Shown here: positions 6,513 through 58,180 of the stretch, piece by piece | How positions within the stretch are numbered: position 1 is the first letter of the stretch | How the letters are laid out: every line of letters starts with the position of its first letter | Assembly: GCF_003614185.1 (NCBI RefSeq) | Contig: NZ_KZ987724.1 | Coordinates: 2,147,360 to 2,211,359, forward strand | DNA: 64,000 bases | Reading direction: 5' to 3' | DNA from: Paenibacillus aceti | GTDB taxonomy: Bacteria > Bacillota > Bacilli > Paenibacillales > Paenibacillaceae | The notes under the pieces: model-generated | The model's database searches: none | What the model was told of the DNA's origin: nothing | The model's input: only the letters and a program-made list of their open reading frames with translations | Program-made: the position numbers and the translations under genes

Positions 6513-8254
6513 GCTTCAGACACCCCCTTGATCCGATCCGTGTGAGAGCTTGAGTTGAACATATCGATATGTCCGTCCTCCTGTTCCCGTAGAATCGCAT
6601 ATTCATATCCCTGTTCAATCAGAAATAGCTGCCTTCGTACCGCAAATTCCTGTTCACGAGTACCCTCCGAGACAAGAGTGTAGAAATACGCGGTCTTCCC
6701 GTCCTCCTTCGGACGCAGTATTCTGCCGAGCCTCTGCGCTTCCTCCTGTCTGGAGCCAAAGCTGCCCGATATTTGAATCGCGACTGCAGCATCCGGCAGG
6801 TCGATTGCGAAGTTGGCTACCTTGGATACAGCAAGCACCGTGATCTGTCTATGGCGAAAAGCATGGAAAATTCGCTCCCGTTCATCCTGCGGCATCCTTC
6901 CCGTAATCAGTGGAACTCCCAGCTCATCTGCAACCTGGTTCAGCTGTTGCAAATATTGGCCGATGATTAATATTTGCCGTCCGGTATGGCGCTTGAGCAA
7001 TTCTCTTAATACCGCTATCTTCTGCGGGTTCTCCGCAGCGATTCTGAATTTCTCCCTCGCTCCGGCCAGATTATAGCGATCTTCAAGCATAGCAGACATC
7101 GCCACTCTTATCTCCCGGCACAGCACGGTCGCGATATATCCGCTGTCCTCCATCTCCTTCCAAGGCACCTCATAGCGCTTCGGTCCGATCAGGGAGAACA
7201 CATCCCGCTCCTGGCCATCCTCGCGGACCAATGTAGCGGTCAAGCCTAATCGGCGCGTGGCCTGAATATCGGCCGTAGCGCGAAATACCGGCGCTGGCAG
7301 AAGATGGACCTCGTCATATATAATCAGCCCCCAGTCCCGCTCATTGAACAGGCTCATATGCTTGAAGCCTTCTTCCTTCCTGCTGCGATGCGTCAATATT
7401 TGATAGGTGGATACCGTGACCTCGCGGACTTGCTTCTTCTCCCCCGAGTATTCCCCGATTCTATCCGGAGTAAGGGTCGTCTTATCCAATAATTCAGCGA
7501 TCCACTGCCGTACTGAAGTTACACTCGAGGTCAAGATCAAGGTTTCACACTGGAAGCACGCCATCGCTGCAAGACCGATGACCGTCTTACCTGCCCCGCA
7601 GGGCAGCACCAGTACGCCACTGCCGCCCGAGCCAACATCCTGATCGCGGGTAAACGCGGCGACACTCTCCTCCTGATACGTTCTCAGTTTGAACTCTTTC
7701 CCGCCGGACGATACTTCCCGCAGCGAGAAGGGAAGAGATTGGCCCTCATGGTACCCGACCAAGTCTAGGACGGGATACCCCAGCCGTGCTAATTCCTGCT
7801 TAATGCTGCCACGGTAATCAGCAGACAGCTTCATTCGCCGTTCATCTATATGAATCAGATGGAAGTCGGATAGACTGGATTCCAGCTCCAACTGACGCAT
7901 AATGTCAGCATCCTGACCCTCCAGCCATAGCATGTCTTCCTCATCGTCAACCCGCTGCAGCTTTAACCTTCCATATCTCGATACCGCGACCTGAATATCC
8001 GCGACTACCGCTGGAGGCAGGGCCCATCTGGAGACCGACTCCAGAGCAGCCACGATCTCAGCGGCCGAGTTGCCTCGAGCCGCCGCGTTCCATAGCGATA
8101 ATGGGGTAATGCGATATGTATGGTAATTTGCCGGACTTTTGACAAGCTCAGCAATTTGTATCAACAGGGCCCGCGCTTCTTCAAAGCCAGGATGATTCTT
8201 CTCCAGCAACACCGTACCATCTCTTTGTACAATACATGCCCCAGCCGTATTCAA
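6509..8254 (-). CDS. XPB-like DNA repair helicase
   Basis: A 581-aa superfamily 2 DNA helicase of the XPB type (3'-5' unwinding, repair or transcription-linked). Motifs seen are Walker A (PCGAGKT), Walker B as DEVH, motif III TAT followed directly by the XPB-specific RED (LVREDGQE), and motif VI QRLGRILRP. The N-terminal 180 residues fit a damage-recognition domain. GGGAGG lies nine bases before the TTG at 8254; an upstream in-frame TTG at 8263 abuts the ribosome site and is less likely. It forms a coupled operon with the helicase-associated gene. Confidence 0.9.
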   Translation of the reverse strand: MNTAGACIVQRDGTVLLEKNHPGFEEARALLIQIAELVKSPANYHTYRITPLSLWNAAARGNSAAEIVAALESVSRWALPPAVVADIQVAVSRYGRLKLQRVDDEEDMLWLEGQDADIMRQLELESSLSDFHLIHIDERRMKLSADYRGSIKQELARLGYPVLDLVGYHEGQSLPFSLREVSSGGKEFKLRTYQEESVAAFTRDQDVGSGGSGVLVLPCGAGKTVIGLAAMACFQCETLILTSSVTSVRQWIAELLDKTTLTPDRIGEYSGEKKQVREVTVSTYQILTHRSRKEEGFKHMSLFNERDWGLIIYDEVHLLPAPVFRATADIQATRRLGLTATLVREDGQERDVFSLIGPKRYEVPWKEMEDSGYIATVLCREIRVAMSAMLEDRYNLAGAREKFRIAAENPQKIAVLRELLKRHTGRQILIIGQYLQQLNQVADELGVPLITGRMPQDERERIFHAFRHRQITVLAVSKVANFAIDLPDAAVAIQISGSFGSRQEEAQRLGRILRPKEDGKTAYFYTLVSEGTREQEFAVRRQLFLIEQGYEYAILREQEDGHIDMFNSSSHTDRIKGVSEA

Positions 8255-8426
8255 GCACAGCAACCTCCCTCAAAATGAATTAGCTCCCTTAGATCATAGC
8301 TTCTCCAAACCGCATGAAATAAGACAGAAGCTAGACTATAACAACAACTATTATCATAACAAGAGATACGGCAACCTCCAACAACCCGCAACCCATTCAT
8401 TTACTGATGCTGACCCATCGCCGAGC

Positions 8427-8468
8427 GCTAACGAAACACCATATCGTTAGCGATATCCCGTTTCGTTA
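8427..8468. promoter_or_regulatory. Overlapping inverted repeats upstream of the flavoprotein gene
   Basis: GCTAACG (8427-8433) pairs with CGTTAGC (8445-8451). The overlapping TAACGAAAC (8429-8437) pairs with GTTTCGTTA (8460-8468). The two pairings exclude each other. The site lies upstream of the predicted start of transcription, so it is more likely a protein operator than an RNA switch. Confidence 0.45.
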
Positions 8469-8510
8469 CCATTTTGAGTAATCGATTGTCATATTTTGTA
8501 TCCTGAAGAT

Positions 8511-8553
8511 TGTGAATAAAATCACTATCCCTTGTCCGATCCTATATTAAAAT
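8511..8553 (+). promoter_or_regulatory. Fnr-type box and promoter
   Basis: TGTGA-N6-TCACT (8511-8526) equals the Bacillus Fnr/CRP-family consensus. A TAAAAT -10 element lies at 8548-8553, with no good -35. If transcription starts at 8560, the box is centred at -41.5, the class II activator position. This predicts anaerobic activation of the downstream flavoprotein gene. Confidence 0.6.
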
Positions 8554-8591
8554 AAAGTGAACCTAAATATAGAAAATGGAGGGGTTAAACC

Positions 8592-10127
8592 ATGAGAAAG
8601 AAAGCAGCAGCACTGCTTGTTCTTGTTCTCTCTTTCGTGCTCGTGATCGCGGGCTGCGGAAGCGGCAACCAGAACAACGACAAGAATCAAGGTCAAGAAA
8701 ACACCAAGAAAGAAGAAGCCGCAGGCAATGAAGCCGTATCAGGCGCTTCTAAGACTAGCTACACACCGTTGGATCAATTGCAGGATAAATACGATATCAT
8801 TATCGTAGGCGCTGGCGGTGCCGGCATGTCTGCCGCACTTGAAGCCAAGAGCAAAGGCTTGAACCCGGTTATTTTCGAGAAAATGCCAGTTGCTGGCGGG
8901 AATACGTTAAAAGCGTCTTCGGGTATGAATGCCTCTGAAACTAAGTTCCAAAAGGAACAAGGGATTGAAGATAGCAATGATTTATTTTATGAAGAAACTT
9001 TAAAAGGCGGCCATGGGACTAACGACAAGGAATTGCTTCGCTTCTTCGTCGACAATTCTGCAAGTGCCATCGATTGGCTGGATTCCATCGGCATCCGCTT
9101 GAACAATATTACGATTACAGGCGGTATGGGCGAGAAACGTACGCACCGTCCTGAAGATGGTTCAGCCGTTGGACAATATGTCGCTAACGGATTGCTGAAG
9201 AATGTGCAAGAGCAGCAAATTCCGCTATTCGTGAATGCAAATGTGAAGGAAATTACAGAACAAGACGGCAAAGTGAATGGCGTTAAAGTTCTCTTTGACC
9301 AAAAAGATGAGAAAACAATCACTGCAGACGCTGTTGTTGTAACGACCGGCGGCTACGGCTCTAATATGGATATGATCTCCAAAGTTCGTCCTGATCTGGA
9401 AGGACTCGTAACTACGAACCAAGAAGGCAGCACCGGCGACGGTATTCAAATGATTGAAAAGCTCGGCGGCGTAACGGTTGATATGGATCAAATCCAGGTT
9501 CACCCAACAGTACAGCAAGATAAATCCTATTTGATCGGGGAAGCTGTGCGCGGTGAAGGCGCGATCCTCGTCTCTAACGAAGGCAAGCGTTTTGTCAATG
9601 AACTGGACACTCGCGATAAAGTTACGGCAGCTATTAATGAACTGTCTGATAAATCAGCTTATCTCGTATTCGACTCCGGTGTGAAATCCCGCGCCAAAGC
9701 GATCGAGCAATATGACAAAATGGGCTTTGTCGTCGCAGGCGATTCGATCGAAGCACTGGCTAAAGAAATGGGCGTTCCCGAAGATCAATTGAAAACGACG
9801 CTCGATACTTGGAATGAAGCAGTGAAGAACAAGAATGACGCAGAATTTGGCAGAACGACAGGTATGGACAATGACTTGTCCAACGGACCTTTCTACGCGA
9901 TCAAGATCGCTCCTGGGATTCACTATACGATGGGTGGCGTGAAGATCAATACGAACACTGAAGTTGTAAATAAAGACGGACAACCTATCGCAGGCCTGTT
10001 CGCAGCGGGCGAAGTGGTTGGCGGATTGCATGGCGAGAACCGGATCGGCGGTAACTCCGTGGCTGAGATCATCATTTTCGGTCGTCAAGCTGGGGTTAAA
10101 TCAGCTGAATACGTTCAAGCACAATAA
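8592..10127 (+). CDS. Lipoprotein fumarate-reductase-like flavoprotein
   Basis: A 511-aa secreted, lipid-anchored FAD-dependent reductase of the flavocytochrome c/fumarate-urocanate reductase family. A lipoprotein signal ends at IAGC (Cys22), followed by a Gln/Asn/Lys/Glu-rich linker. The Rossmann GAGGAG motif is near residue 73. Active-site regions include QVHPT, a FVNELDTRD motif, IHYTMGG, and the C-terminal ENRIGGNSVAEI with the FAD end. There is no haem domain and no FMN-binding domain, so electrons must come from another protein. Substrate could be fumarate, urocanate or another enoate. AGGGG precedes the ATG. It is monocistronic with a terminator. Confidence 0.88.
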   Translation: MRKKAAALLVLVLSFVLVIAGCGSGNQNNDKNQGQENTKKEEAAGNEAVSGASKTSYTPLDQLQDKYDIIIVGAGGAGMSAALEAKSKGLNPVIFEKMPVAGGNTLKASSGMNASETKFQKEQGIEDSNDLFYEETLKGGHGTNDKELLRFFVDNSASAIDWLDSIGIRLNNITITGGMGEKRTHRPEDGSAVGQYVANGLLKNVQEQQIPLFVNANVKEITEQDGKVNGVKVLFDQKDEKTITADAVVVTTGGYGSNMDMISKVRPDLEGLVTTNQEGSTGDGIQMIEKLGGVTVDMDQIQVHPTVQQDKSYLIGEAVRGEGAILVSNEGKRFVNELDTRDKVTAAINELSDKSAYLVFDSGVKSRAKAIEQYDKMGFVVAGDSIEALAKEMGVPEDQLKTTLDTWNEAVKNKNDAEFGRTTGMDNDLSNGPFYAIKIAPGIHYTMGGVKINTNTEVVNKDGQPIAGLFAAGEVVGGLHGENRIGGNSVAEIIIFGRQAGVKSAEYVQAQ

Positions 10128-50782: not shown

Positions 50783-51361
50783 TTATTTAATTCTCTTCAG
50801 CTCCGCTTCCTGTTGGATCGAGCGTAAAGATAGCACTTCAATAATACTATGTTGGTTCTCCAAAACAGTCTCCATTTTCATGACACGTTCGTTCGTGTCC
50901 AACACTGCACGTTTAATCAAATGTTGATCTTCTTTGATTTCATGAACATCTTGTTTAATCCCGTTCAGATCTTGTTTCACAAGAACCTGGTCAGCTTTTA
51001 TACCCTGTATATCCTGCTTCATAAGAGACTGGTCTTCTTTTATGCCCTGTATATCCTGCCTCATGAAGGTCTGATCATCCTTTATGCCCTGTATGTCTTG
51101 CTTCATGAAGGTCTGATCATTCTTTATGCCCTGTATATCCTGCCTCATGAAGGTCTGATCATCCTTTATGCCCTGTATATCCTGCTTCATGAAGGTCTGA
51201 TCATCCTTTATGCCCTGTATGTCCTGCTTCATGAGAGTCTGGTCTTCTTCAATTCCCATTAGTCGATTATCAATACCATCGAGTTTTTGATCGAGAGAAT
51301 CAAATCGCTTCTCAAATTGATTCATAGTAGCCTGCAGCAATTCCTTCAAATCATTACTCAT
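50783..51361 (-). CDS. Tandem-repeat coiled-coil protein
   Basis: A 192-aa charged helical protein with no signal peptide. The middle consists of about seven 14-residue repeats of the form QDIQGIKDDQTFMK, two heptads each, so a long coiled coil is expected. The first 35 residues (LKELLQATMNQFEKRFDSLDQKLDGIDNRL) continue the heptads. It starts at an ATG and lies just left of the tRNA. Function unknown; it may be a structural or scaffolding protein. Confidence 0.7.
   Translation of the reverse strand: MSNDLKELLQATMNQFEKRFDSLDQKLDGIDNRLMGIEEDQTLMKQDIQGIKDDQTFMKQDIQGIKDDQTFMRQDIQGIKNDQTFMKQDIQGIKDDQTFMRQDIQGIKEDQSLMKQDIQGIKADQVLVKQDLNGIKQDVHEIKEDQHLIKRAVLDTNERVMKMETVLENQHSIIEVLSLRSIQQEAELKRIK
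50961..51254. repeat. 42-bp tandem repeat in the coiled-coil gene
   Basis: Six near-identical 42-bp units start at 51003, 51045, 51087, 51129, 51171 and 51213, with a more divergent seventh at 50961. Each encodes 14 residues, so copy number can change without frameshift. Confidence 0.9.
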
Positions 51362-51819: not shown

Positions 51820-52032
51820 TTATTTTATAGCCCTTATTCTTCCTGCTTTAATGAAATTATCTATAGTTTGATAGATATCTATACATTTTCCCTCTTTCCA
51901 AACTTCCATTATTTTATTAACTCCTTCATTTTTTAAGTATCTTGTAAATGCGTCATTAAATACTGTCGTAACAAGTAAATTTTTCCTATGCCTCTCTTCC
52001 AATACAACAAACGTTTCAAAATCAATATGCAA
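51820..52032 (-). CDS. Small phage protein, unknown
   Basis: A 70-aa soluble charged protein, unknown family. The TTG at 52032 is preferred because AAAGGAG lies nine bases upstream; the start overlaps the end of the LexA-like gene by 11 bases, so the two are an operon, with the LexA-type gene first. Content is strand-helix (LLVTTVFNDAFTRYL, WKEGKCIDIYQTI). It may work with the repressor. Confidence 0.6.
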   Translation of the reverse strand: MHIDFETFVVLEERHRKNLLVTTVFNDAFTRYLKNEGVNKIMEVWKEGKCIDIYQTIDNFIKAGRIRAIK

Positions 52033-52264
52033 TGTTAACAACTCCTTTTATATTGCCAATTAATTGGAGCGCCCTCGGCTTGCTCGCTTCTCTCCTTATG
52101 TATCCTTTTTGTTCCAAATTGCTTAAATATCCATGAATAGTTGATGTAGATTTTACTTCCATTAAAACAGCCAGTTCTCTTACGGTAGGAGGATATCCAT
52201 GTTCTTGAAGATATTTATTGATTACCGACAACGCTTCCTTTTCTCTTCTGGTAATTGTATTCAT
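52022..52264 (-). CDS. LexA-type DNA-binding domain protein
   Basis: An 80-aa protein equal to the LexA N-terminal winged helix: REKEALSVINKYLQEHGYPPTVRELAVLMEVKSTSTIHGYLSNLEQKGYIRREASKPRAL. The autoprotease half (Ser/Lys dyad) is missing, so it should not be cleaved by RecA. It may act as an SOS-independent repressor of phage genes or compete with host LexA. AAGGAGG precedes the ATG. Its promoter overlaps a perfect palindrome and a LexA-like box. Confidence 0.82.
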   Translation of the reverse strand: MNTITRREKEALSVINKYLQEHGYPPTVRELAVLMEVKSTSTIHGYLSNLEQKGYIRREASKPRALQLIGNIKGVVNIAY

Positions 52265-55015: not shown

Positions 55016-55049
55016 AAATCCCACCAACCAATTAAGGTCAGTGGGATTT
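55016..55049 (-). terminator. Terminator of the three-gene cassette
   Basis: AAATCCCAC (55016-55024) and GTGGGATTT (55041-55049) form a 9-bp stem 24 bp after the last stop of the cassette. A T-rich stretch follows on the minus strand. Confidence 0.7.
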
Positions 55050-55072
55050 TAAAATGTAGGTAGTGTTTATAA

Positions 55073-55414
55073 TTACAAACTTATTCCTAGAGATGTTGCA
55101 AGAGCCGCCCCGGCCGATGTAACTTTTATTGCTTCGGAAAGCAAACCGAAGAATTTCTTCGCTCGGTCAAGTTTATTTTCCTGGACGCATCCTTTAATTG
55201 TTGCCAGATCCGATAAATTATCATTCCGCTCTTGGGAATCAGTTAATTTTTCAATTTCAGCCTTTAAATCTAAAAACAGTTGTTCAAACTTACTATCCAG
55301 AGGGACTTGATATGTTTGAGTATTGGCATCACCTTGAAAGTTGCTGTTTCCATTGAAAGTCGCTCCATCAAAACTTATATCTTTCATTTTTCTTGAGTAA
55401 TCATTATTCTGCAC
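55073..55414 (-). CDS. Cassette gene C: small protein with GDANTQ motif
   Basis: A 113-aa protein of unknown function, the last gene of the three-gene unit. The N-terminus DISFDGATFNGNSNFQGDANTQTYQ is a short beta-helix-like segment followed by an amphipathic helical part (LFLDLKAEIEKLTDSQERNDNLSDLATIKGCVQENKL). It ends with a hydrophobic AAGAALATSLGISL-like stretch (TSAGAALATSLGISL). This layout, with a short Gly/Asn-rich N-terminus, helices and a hydrophobic tail, recurs in effector-associated proteins of bacterial conflict systems, but I do not identify a family. Start is GTG after GGAGG. An 86-bp gap separates it from gene B. Confidence 0.6.
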   Translation of the reverse strand: MQNNDYSRKMKDISFDGATFNGNSNFQGDANTQTYQVPLDSKFEQLFLDLKAEIEKLTDSQERNDNLSDLATIKGCVQENKLDRAKKFFGLLSEAIKVTSAGAALATSLGISL

Positions 55415-55500
55415 ATTTATACCTCCGCTAATAATTAGTTCATTAATTGTTATCCCTGCCTTATAAAGATCTGATAAGAGCGTACCTTGTGTATTGCCAT

Positions 55501-55866
55501 TTAAAAGTGGGATACTTGTCTTACTTTCTTTTTTTTTACATAATCTTTGTACTGAGGTAAAAAATCAAAAGAAACCCAAACCCTATCAGGGTCTGGTCTA
55601 TATTCTATTCCACATACACTGCATCTACGAAGTTCACTTATAATTTCAACCGGTGAATCGACTAAAAAGTCACTATCCCCTTCTGGGCATTCCACCTCAT
55701 AATAAACCTTAAGTTTTCTATTAACTTGAGACAACAAGTATTGTGTTACAATTTTCAGGTCGGCAATACCACTCAGGGCACATATATAGTGAGGAGAAAA
55801 ATGCTTTTTATCATTAAAGGCCATTTCTTCTAAAATATCATCAAGTCGAAATTCATATTCTAACAT
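55501..55866 (-). CDS. Cassette gene B: protein with CxxC motif
   Basis: A 121-aa soluble protein, unknown family. It has a helical N-terminal half (RLDDILEEMAFNDKKHF) with an HYICALSGIADLKIVTQYLLSQVNRKL helix. The centre has YYEVECPEGDSDFLVDSPVE and then CSVCG, a probable zinc ribbon. The end is basic (KDYVKKKKVRQVSHF). GGGGGTGAGGGATA precedes the ATG. It starts 20 bp after the stop of gene A, so they are cotranscribed. Confidence 0.65.
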   Translation of the reverse strand: MLEYEFRLDDILEEMAFNDKKHFSPHYICALSGIADLKIVTQYLLSQVNRKLKVYYEVECPEGDSDFLVDSPVEIISELRRCSVCGIEYRPDPDRVWVSFDFLPQYKDYVKKKKVRQVSHF

Positions 55867-55886
55867 TATCCCTCACCCCCTTGAAG

Positions 55887-56840
55887 TTATATATTCTCTA
55901 CAGCCTCGATTAATTCCTTCTCAGTTGCAGACTCTCCAAACTTTATTTTTAATATCACATTAAAAACGAAACTTATAACTTCTTCTCCAACATTAGATCG
56001 AAACCACAATCCTTCGTCAGTAATTACATAAGAGATCTCATCCTCAAAACCAAAAGAATATTTATGTTTGAACAATAATGTTTTTTTCTTAACTGGTTGG
56101 TTGTTAAATTCCCTCTTATAATCCTCTTCAGATTCAAGGTCTTCTACTTGAGGTTTTGCAGTCACTTCTTTTGTTGAGTACACTCCTTCAGTCATCTTGT
56201 GTTTTGCAGATCTCAACTTAGCATTCAATTCTCGCGCCAATTGTTTTGCCTGTTCTTCAGTAAGCTTGGTTAACTTTTCCCAAGTAACCTCTTGATCAAT
56301 TCCCATAATACTGAGAATAGTCCTTTTGAATGTTTCATTTTGCGACTGGCTAGCTCTGATTTCGACACAGAAAGGTTCGAAGTGAATAACTACATAATCC
56401 AATATTTGTTGTCTCCGCACCACAATTTCGAAGTTTTCTAAATAGCGCCTTGAAGAGCCGAGATACGAAAATGCCAGTACTAACCTATTGCCCACTTCGT
56501 GGGCCTTTATTATTTTAGGTTCATCGCTTAAAGTCGGTCTAAGGCCTCTACCAAAAATATCATTAGTATATTTTTCAATTAAAAATCCTTTAAAATATTC
56601 TTTGTTCCTCCATTCTGGAGATATTTCGGAAGTAACCATATGTATGTTTACAGCTGTTGCCCCAGCATACTGAAATTGATCTGCTATATCTTGTCCAACA
56701 GAAGGCTTTTTATCTGCTATTATATTTGCCATGTCTTCTATTACAGATAATTTTGTATCTTTATCAAGTTTTTCATTTTTCACCACTTGTTTTAATACGC
56801 CTGAAGGAACCTGCATAGCTAAAATATCTCTTAGTCGCAT
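55887..56840 (-). CDS. Cassette gene A: 317-aa hypothetical protein
   Basis: A 317-aa soluble protein that I do not recognise, the first gene of the cassette. The N-terminal 60 residues are helical (VVKNEKLDKDTKLSVIEDMANIIADKK). The middle is a strand-rich domain (NRLVLAFSYLGSSRRYLENFEIVVRRQQILDYVVIHFEPF) then a charged helix (KLTEEQAKQLARELNAKLRSAKHKM). The end is beta (FKHKYSFGFEDEISYVITDEGLWFRSN). No nuclease, kinase or helicase motif is apparent. The ATG follows GGGGGAAGACGG. It has its own promoter (56889-56917) and lies beyond the terminator of the late operon. Confidence 0.65.
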   Translation of the reverse strand: MRLRDILAMQVPSGVLKQVVKNEKLDKDTKLSVIEDMANIIADKKPSVGQDIADQFQYAGATAVNIHMVTSEISPEWRNKEYFKGFLIEKYTNDIFGRGLRPTLSDEPKIIKAHEVGNRLVLAFSYLGSSRRYLENFEIVVRRQQILDYVVIHFEPFCVEIRASQSQNETFKRTILSIMGIDQEVTWEKLTKLTEEQAKQLARELNAKLRSAKHKMTEGVYSTKEVTAKPQVEDLESEEDYKREFNNQPVKKKTLLFKHKYSFGFEDEISYVITDEGLWFRSNVGEEVISFVFNVILKIKFGESATEKELIEAVENI

Positions 56841-56888
56841 CCGTCTTCCCCCACTAATATTCCATATTTTATAGTATCATTACATAGA

Positions 56889-56917
56889 AGTATAGTGGAA
56901 TTGGAACATTGTGTAAA
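56889..56917 (-). promoter_or_regulatory. Promoter of the three-gene cassette
   Basis: On the minus strand TTTACA (56917-56912) - 17 bp - TATACT (56894-56889), about 50 bp before the gene A start. A good sigma-A promoter independent of the late operon. Confidence 0.75.
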
Positions 56918-56954
56918 CAACTAATAGTTCGCACGGACTATTATATGAATCATA

Positions 56955-56991
56955 AAAAAGCCCCACCAACTAGATGCTGGCAGGGCTTTTT
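56955..56991 (-). terminator. Terminator of the phage late operon
   Basis: AAAAAGCCC-tg-CCA...TGG-tg-GGGCTTTTT on the minus strand, 48 bp after the holin stop. It isolates the cassette from late transcription. Confidence 0.85.
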
Positions 56992-57038: not shown

Positions 57039-57263
57039 TTACAAGTTATACCCCTGACCGCCGGGCTTGGTTGGATTACTGATAATCCCGAGGGTTGCGA
57101 GCAATCCAAGCAGCACATCCGTTACAGCCAAGATATCATTCTTCATTACTTCGGTTAAGTCAAATAATCCTGTCAGGTGTCCAAGAAGCTGTAAAAGCAA
57201 TAACACCTGAGATACGATACTGACCCACAGTGCATAGTTCCGCCATCTTTTCTTACTCATCAT
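57039..57263 (-). CDS. Phage holin
   Basis: A 74-aa membrane protein with two helices (WVSIVSQVLLLLQLLGHL and ILAVTDVLLGLLATLGII) and a short Gly/Pro-rich end (SNPTKPGGQGYNL), as in phi-LC3/SPP1-type holins. It makes membrane lesions for endolysin release. It overlaps the endolysin stop by four bases (ATGA), the typical lysis pair. The layout is endolysin-holin in transcription order. Confidence 0.85.
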   Translation of the reverse strand: MMSKKRWRNYALWVSIVSQVLLLLQLLGHLTGLFDLTEVMKNDILAVTDVLLGLLATLGIISNPTKPGGQGYNL

Positions 57264-58180
57264 TGTAACTCCCCTCCCTTCTCGATTACTTCAAGTTTCC
57301 TTTCCAACTCGCTGATCCTCGCCGTATTGCCGGCGATCAGTTTGAGAAAGTTGGTACGCAGCCGGTTGATAACGATGGCTGTCTGTTCCCTAGTAATCGG
57401 TGCTCCTGGTCTTGTCCCATCAAAGTAACCATTCGCCTTGGCCTCCGCCCAATCTTTAGCAGCCCACTCGCTTACCTGGTTTATATCCCGTTCCGTCACC
57501 TTAGGTTCCTCCTTCTTAGGTCCGTATTTTCTCATCAGTTCCGCCTTAGAACCATTAAACTCGTTGAGGTCAACATTACCATTAATGCCGTTTACCTTCC
57601 TTGTCCCGTTTGCTCTTACGCCACCCTTATCATCTCCGCTATATTGGAAGAATTCCCATTGCTTCCAAGCGACTACATCCCATGGAGCCGATGTAGCGTA
57701 ACGCGCTACCCATAGTGGATACTTACCTAGATCTTTTTCAAACTTTTCAGCAAAGGAGTTTCCAGTATAAATTCCCGGAGTCACGTTCAGTCTTGCCTCT
57801 ACCCGATTTAAGAACGCTCGTGCAACTACGTTAATTTGAGCTGCTGTAATGCCCTTAAACTCTTCGTAATCTAGCATTGGTGGTAGATCAAATACTTTAG
57901 TACCGCCTGCTTCTTCAATTGCATCGCAAAACAGATCTGCAGCAGCAACAGCTAGTGCAGCAGTAGTTACTTTGGCGTCAAGGTAATGATATGCGCCAAT
58001 CAATAGCCCGACAGACTTTGCTCCTTTTACTTGCTCTAAAAACATCGGAGCAATAGAATTTTGTGTAGCTTTGATAAAAACAAAATCAATCCTGTCTTTC
58101 GCAACTTTCGCCCAATTAATGTTTCCGTTATGATGGGACACATCAATTCCTTGTGCGTTACTTGATTTACGTTGTTGCAT
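57260..58180 (-). CDS. GH25 endolysin with SLH-like tail
   Basis: A 306-aa phage lysozyme. Residues 10-200 match glycoside hydrolase family 25 (GIDVSHHNGNINWAKV, MLDYEEF, and the final IDLNEF-like NVDLNEF), which cleaves MurNAc-GlcNAc bonds. The acidic pair in LDYEEF is catalytic. After a Lys/Glu-rich linker the C-terminus (residues 225-275, VSEWAAKDWAEAKANGYFDGT, PITREQTAIVINRL) is an SLH-like cell-wall-binding module, fitting a Paenibacillaceae host. GGGAGAGGG precedes the ATG. No signal peptide; export is by the holin. Confidence 0.92.
   Translation of the reverse strand: MQQRKSSNAQGIDVSHHNGNINWAKVAKDRIDFVFIKATQNSIAPMFLEQVKGAKSVGLLIGAYHYLDAKVTTAALAVAAADLFCDAIEEAGGTKVFDLPPMLDYEEFKGITAAQINVVARAFLNRVEARLNVTPGIYTGNSFAEKFEKDLGKYPLWVARYATSAPWDVVAWKQWEFFQYSGDDKGGVRANGTRKVNGINGNVDLNEFNGSKAELMRKYGPKKEEPKVTERDINQVSEWAAKDWAEAKANGYFDGTRPGAPITREQTAIVINRLRTNFLKLIAGNTARISELERKLEVIEKGGELQ

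Follow-up and report, generated by a model that had tools for sequence, protein, structure and literature searches.

A stretch of 64,000 nucleotides (nt) of Paenibacillus aceti (RefSeq assembly GCF_003614185.1, contig NZ_KZ987724.1, positions 2,147,360 to 2,211,359; hereafter the window) carries, just past a phage lysis module, a small cassette, the parts of which are called A, B and C. Comparison with relatives (L numbers denote loci and G numbers genomes) showed, at the level of sequence, that the cassette encodes A, B and a joint B-C frame, with B and C meeting at a conserved run of nine or ten adenines (A9-A10), and it is close to certain that a programmed frameshift takes place at this run. 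The cassette is read, with somewhat better than even confidence, as a Rex-like phage-exclusion (abortive-infection) module with a tail set by slippage. A preliminary description, made from the letters of the window, had listed three separate genes; B and C look frameshift-linked and the cassette is better read as two.

Twenty junctions between B and C were compared: those of the window, L006-L009, L011, L012, L017, L021, L022, L024, L026, L046-L048, L050, L064, L065, L075 and L076. These are not all independent, as L024 and L026 are near-identical, and L025 and L034 repeat L024; no junction was added by L023 and L067, which end inside A, or by L066, which equals L065 over 1465 nt. The run was A9 or A10 in 19 of the 20, the exception being the A7 run of a decayed copy (L008, in G140) in which a transposase gene interrupts A; the same genome has an intact copy (L021/L031). 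Exactly one long frame, of 134-166 codons from the run, was found in all 17 split loci with A9-A10, the other two frames stopping within 3-22 codons. This long C frame lay at -1 relative to B in 15 of them and at +1 in two (L024, L048). The interval from the upstream stop to the run held no ATG, GTG, TTG or CTG in 12 of 13 split -1 loci with A9-A10, L012 having a TTG, and the C frame of the window has no start codon from its upstream stop to its A9 run. In 293,581 bases there were 19 runs of at least nine A or T, and 15 of these were B-C junctions (one of them present twice, as L024 and L034). In L075 and L076 B and C are naturally fused in the zero frame, as proteins of 285 and 292 amino acids (aa), with the run kept in frame (A10 or A9) and the other frames ending within 24 codons, so that slippage there would give B alone. 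In the window the predicted product after slippage is a B-C fusion of about 264 aa. A C frame that lacks a normal start can be missed or shortened by gene finders.

One alternative is that B and C are separate genes that overlap and are translationally coupled, with the A run coding only for lysines and no fusion being made. An in-frame ATG or GTG preceded by GGAGG does lie inside the C frame of seven loci (the window, L006, L007, L008, L011, L012 and L022), and a short C may be produced by internal initiation, in the window at GTG 55414; the evidence for such a start is weakened by the fact that the Gly-Gly encoded by GGAGG itself is conserved. The preliminary description began C at this GTG, where a 113-aa open reading frame (ORF) opens in the ORF list of the window, a start not borne out, as the frame is open and similar across species upstream of it, back to the A9 run within B. 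Residues kept between the run and the internal start numbered 18/39 for the window and L011 (14 by synonymous change), 23/41 for L011 and L012 and 15/39 for the window and L012, conservation being weaker for L046 and L047 (9/47), L006 and L022 (11/39) and the window and L006 (10/33). The C frame is thus open and partly conserved upstream of the internal starts, lies at -1 or +1 yet is always entered at the run, and exists in natural fusions with B, while that of L050 has no ATG, GTG or TTG within 75 codons of the run. Coupling without fusion is accordingly very improbable. The L050 frame (6563-6997), without any of these codons in that interval, looks like a divergent C module, which suggests that the tail is exchangeable.

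RNA polymerase slippage at the run, rather than ribosomal shifting, is most probably what would yield B together with the B-C fusion, to judge from the reading frames. We weighed and set aside a ribosomal -1 shift at A AAA AAG or A AAA AAA: such a shift accounts for the 15 loci where C lies at -1 and fails at L024 and L048, whereas slippage explains all loci, and no stimulatory hairpin was found downstream of the run in the eight loci folded (z from 0.44 to -0.82 against shuffles). Phages Harrison and phiIBB_Pl23 share 99.83% identity across 1777 nt (two mismatches and one 1-base gap) and differ by one A in the run; C lies at +1 in Harrison (L024/L025, A9) and at -1 in phiIBB_Pl23 (L026, A10). 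A caveat that must be applied to this pair is that a sequencing error in a single record could account for the difference. RNA polymerase slippage is described for runs of such length (PMC3711429). A tail-chaperone type of phage frameshift was rejected because of the position of the genes and the copies outside phages.

The fold search on A that the preliminary description had proposed gave an RdgC-like fold, linked by published work to the RexA exclusion protein. RdgC was the best match of the predicted model of A among solved structures, and phage-encoded RdgC proteins were among its matches to viral models; the RdgC match begins at residue 57, so A has an extra helical part at its N terminus. 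CENP-N and CENP-L folds also occurred among the matches. A Pfam scan at expectation values (E) up to 1 gave A no match to the RdgC profile or to DUF4747, the sequence family of RexA, a scan limited by the HMMER filters, which discard most matches above E of about 0.1. The DUF4747 profile run over eight genomes gave none above the cut-off (0/8) and listed no place at A. The RdgC fold is published for lambda RexA, and actinophage homologues of RexA bind DNA (PMC11077077); the model of A was compared with RdgC and not with RexA itself. Lambda RexA did not appear among the structure matches listed for A, from which no conclusion is drawn. RexA, one half of the RexAB phage-exclusion system, is reported to bias the lambda lysis-lysogeny switch. 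A is probably a DNA-binding sensor subunit. Gene A of phage Harrison (L024 5995-6963) is annotated as 'ABC transporter-like protein', a name without support in the present analysis.

B is a winged helix carrying a zinc-type insertion (CP..C..C), and its matches included the plasmid centromere-binding AspA fold. Its C-terminal helix carries VKKK, which is encoded by the A run. The C tail consists of a Gly/Asn-rich stretch followed by a helical domain with an apolar end, and in L007, L048 and L050 it looks unlike the others. A multi-pass membrane partner of the RexB kind was not found in the window, the hydropathy of C reaching at most 1.32; a clearly apolar protein in third position (hydropathy 2.46) was found only at L060, a distant locus with an SAP-type protein, a B-like protein and a membrane protein in the order of the trio. 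L060 is no more than a possible variant of the cassette, its first gene being without a sequence match to A. At L069 an SAP-domain protein (7816-8994), a B-like zinc protein (7317-7859, with a DUF5939 match) and a membrane protein (6748-7320) were seen, the membrane protein occupying the C position and a serine recombinase adjoining; this arrangement is possibly a variant with an exchanged effector.

A, B and C had no convincing match in Pfam, NCBIfam or PADLOC, and weak matches to AMP-binding_C_2, Pentapeptide_3, PA2779_fam, TIGR02466, AAA-Csx3 and PDC-M14B were taken as chance. In PADLOC-DB 2.0.0 at a limit of 1 there was none for A and values of 0.021 for B and 0.014 for C, which do not amount to a profile match; the proteins of a divergent trio, A'B'C' (L064/L068), had none at a limit of 0.01, and the L075 and L076 proteins submitted had none at 0.001. 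Searches with tblastn returned nothing from phage records for A, B and C of the window, A of L007 or A' of L068, and nothing from plasmid records for A of the window, L009 or L047; A of L009 found nothing in viral contigs, and sequence searches against solved structures gave nothing useful. Homology to phage morphogenesis genes, which the preliminary description had named as speaking against its reading, was not seen, as no such family was matched by A, B or C in the profile scans. The proteins of L009 matched PHROG 37984 (A, E 2e-77), 33512 (B, 2e-52) and 35861 (C, 4e-18), to which those of the window matched weakly (0.059, 8e-4 and 1e-4). No description of this trio was seen in the literature listings searched.

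The distribution of the trio was examined by searches with A, as a single sequence in the family, as a five-row profile in the order and as a ten-row profile in the class and phylum. A was found in 7/395 genomes of the family, which include Paenibacillus albidus and P. sinensis, in 8/393 of the order, in 5/398 of the class and in 4/398 of the phylum, all four counts including the window's own genome and the samples overlapping; weak matches with E of 0.001-0.005 (one in the class and two in the phylum: G569, G1052, G905) were not counted as trios. The trio thus occurs in about 0.5-2% of sampled genomes, and the 5.6-Mb genome of the window has a single A match. The trio is conserved elsewhere, contrary to one outcome that the preliminary description had named as refuting it, and the order A-B-C is kept in the relatives of A with a complete region. 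Copies in which A is not whole comprise L008, cut as described above, L050/L051, with A over two contigs, and L012 (P. sinensis), with A broken. B was found in 11/393 genomes of the order, eight of which are the eight with A; the other three are L061, where a B-like protein has no A or C alongside, L060, and G135, where the match is weak and was not counted as a trio. A of L009 matched four phages of Paenibacillus larvae, represented by six records (Harrison, Paisley, Lilo and phiIBB_Pl23). The three P. larvae phage regions inspected have lysis genes, then A-B-C, then a toxin gene, and in Harrison the trio lies between an annotated transposase and the toxin gene. A paper on 96 P. larvae phages reports that phage Neutron lacks the internal genes of this 'toxin module' (PMC11860570). 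G717 has two prophage stretches (L048/L049) that face opposite ways and share their listed ORFs, each with a cassette.

Copies are not restricted to prophages, as the preliminary description would have had it: two (L029, L030) lie among chromosomal genes with no phage nearby, their neighbours having been named by eye. The contig of L047 also carries TubZ and FtsK-type genes, and L076 is on the Aneurinibacillus plasmid pAT1 with phage genes alongside. In the divergent trio at L064/L068, A' matched at hmmsearch E 5e-6 (0.02 for the best shuffle; hhalign probability 69), and B' and C' matched at E 1e-10 and 4e-13. A'B'C' begins 30 bases past a type III restriction-modification (R-M) Res gene, behind Mod, DUF4391 and helicase genes, and has two pPIWI-RE system genes after it, which places this copy inside a type III R-M/pPIWI-RE defence island. 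An AbiD gene was confirmed near two copies, 5.9 kb ahead of A in L047 and 2.0 kb beyond the fused gene of L076, and in L046 C is followed by RES-domain (1.2 kb), Mrr-like (2.3 kb) and AbiJ-like (3.1 kb) genes. A check for known defence genes nearby, suggested at the outset, confirmed them by profile beside relatives at four loci (L046, L047, L068, L076) of the 17 whose flanks of several kb were read by eye, copies being counted once; as only neighbours picked by eye were scanned (in one such scan 5/10 were of defence-type or RES families), the other loci may have defence genes too. The trio is rare, accessory and mobile, occurring in prophages, on plasmids, as lone chromosomal copies and in a defence island.

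The layout of the cassette in the window is given in Table 1. A, B and the 113-aa ORF lie where the preliminary description put them, on the minus strand just past the lysis module. Both hairpins that it called terminators fold far more strongly than shuffled sequences; a pattern scan for terminators picked up the one after C, with its poor U tract, and missed the stronger one. Its claim of an own promoter was not supported beyond chance: the promoter-like site is present, but the number of such sites in the region was not above chance (15, against 11.5 +/- 3.9 in shuffles). The self-contained accessory cassette that it proposed is supported. Near the cassette, 52022-52264 encodes an 80-aa LexA-like N-terminal domain that lacks the peptidase part. 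Also in the window, 50783-51361 encodes a 192-aa coiled-coil-like repeat protein with repeats of the type DQTFMKQDIQGIK.

Table 1. Features of the cassette and of the adjoining lysis genes in the window (z, folding energy relative to shuffled sequences)
Feature	Position	Strand	Description	Remarks
Gene A	55887-56840	minus	317 aa	predicted RdgC-like fold
Gene B	55501-55866	minus	121 aa, CxxC	winged helix, CP..C..C zinc-type insertion
A9 slippery run (T9 on + strand)	55529-55537	minus	passage from B frame to C frame	
Full C frame	55073-55537	minus	-1 relative to B	154 codons + stop
Candidate internal start of short C	55412-55426	minus	GGAGGT 55426-55421, 6 bases, GTG 55414-55412	
Promoter-like TTTACA-17-TATACT	56889-56917	minus	upstream of A	
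Strong intrinsic terminator	56955-56991	minus	separates lysis genes from A	-29.4 kcal/mol, z -6.3
Terminator-like hairpin, weak U tract	55016-55049	minus	after C	-22.0 kcal/mol, z -6.05
Holin	57039-57263		cassette just past it	
GH25 endolysin	57260-58180		cassette just past it	

A phage-exclusion or defence role for the cassette is probable, in view of the fold of A, the literature on RexA, the type III R-M and pPIWI-RE neighbours of A'B'C' and the AbiD, AbiJ-like and Mrr-like neighbours of other copies. In the mechanism proposed, RNA polymerase would slip on the run to give mRNAs with one A more or fewer, and a share of B chains would carry the C tail. In the lysogen, A (RdgC/RexA-type fold) and B (winged helix, zinc) would sit together on DNA as a sensor complex, with the tail on some of its B subunits. 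This complex would sense a change made by an incoming phage to DNA or to a protein, whereupon the C tails might cluster or meet the membrane and the infection be stopped; the action of the tail is a guess, and the membrane step is the weakest part. We tentatively propose, at slightly less than even confidence, a new class of mobile Bacillota defence module in which an RdgC/RexA-fold sensor acts with a winged-helix zinc adaptor, an exchangeable effector tail is fused only in the chains made by slippage and its dose is set by the A9-A10 run.

Other functions were weighed against exclusion. A regulator of lysis and lysogeny, in which DNA binding by A and B would tune the prophage switch and the ratio of B to B-C would set the dose, would suit the winged helix of B and the bias reported for RexA, but it is unlikely given the copies outside prophages, among host genes (L029, L030) and beside type III R-M genes, and a position beyond the lysis genes. 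RdgC itself is not known to need B or C. This counts, as do the unit bounded by its own terminators after the lysis genes and the chromosomal copies with no phage nearby, against a recombination or replication accessory, an RdgC-like DNA clamp of benefit to the carrier phage, which would agree with RdgC as the best solved-structure match and with the phage RdgC proteins among the viral ones; the cassette is also accessory in P. larvae phages, and such a clamp seems rather improbable. A module for segregation or tethering of DNA, with A like CENP-N/CENP-L and B like AspA, is least likely of all, even though these folds turn up among the matches.

Of known systems, lambda RexA/RexB and the actinophage pairs (Sbash gp30/31, CarolAnn gp44/43) are likewise small prophage-borne units, and share with the cassette an RdgC-fold protein, published for RexA and predicted here for A, beside partner genes. 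The cassette differs from RexAB in that A has no DUF4747 match, that no multi-pass membrane partner lies in the window, that it has in addition a zinc protein of the winged-helix type and a tail that depends on a frameshift, and that it sits after the lysis genes. RdgC is approached by A in solved-structure and viral-model fold matches, and differs in the missing Pfam match and the additional N-terminal part. Thermus dnaX and other genes with poly-A slippage (PMC3711429) likewise have a run of nine or ten A's and a shorter and a longer product with a common N terminus, the two products of the cassette being predicted from sequence; the cassette, which is mobile, instead adds to a winged-helix protein a domain that is separate and in part exchangeable. 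The three PHROG families named above are the same three families, all of 'unknown function', with B and C kept separate.

To our knowledge, the route from a RexA-type sensor to its effector is still open. A family that fuses a DNA-binding partner to a likely effector by slippage would make the link between sensor and effector testable, and would mean that a mobile cassette associated with defence also has a conserved slippage site. It would provide a working hypothesis for the three 'unknown' PHROG families and for a set of Paenibacillus phage genes.
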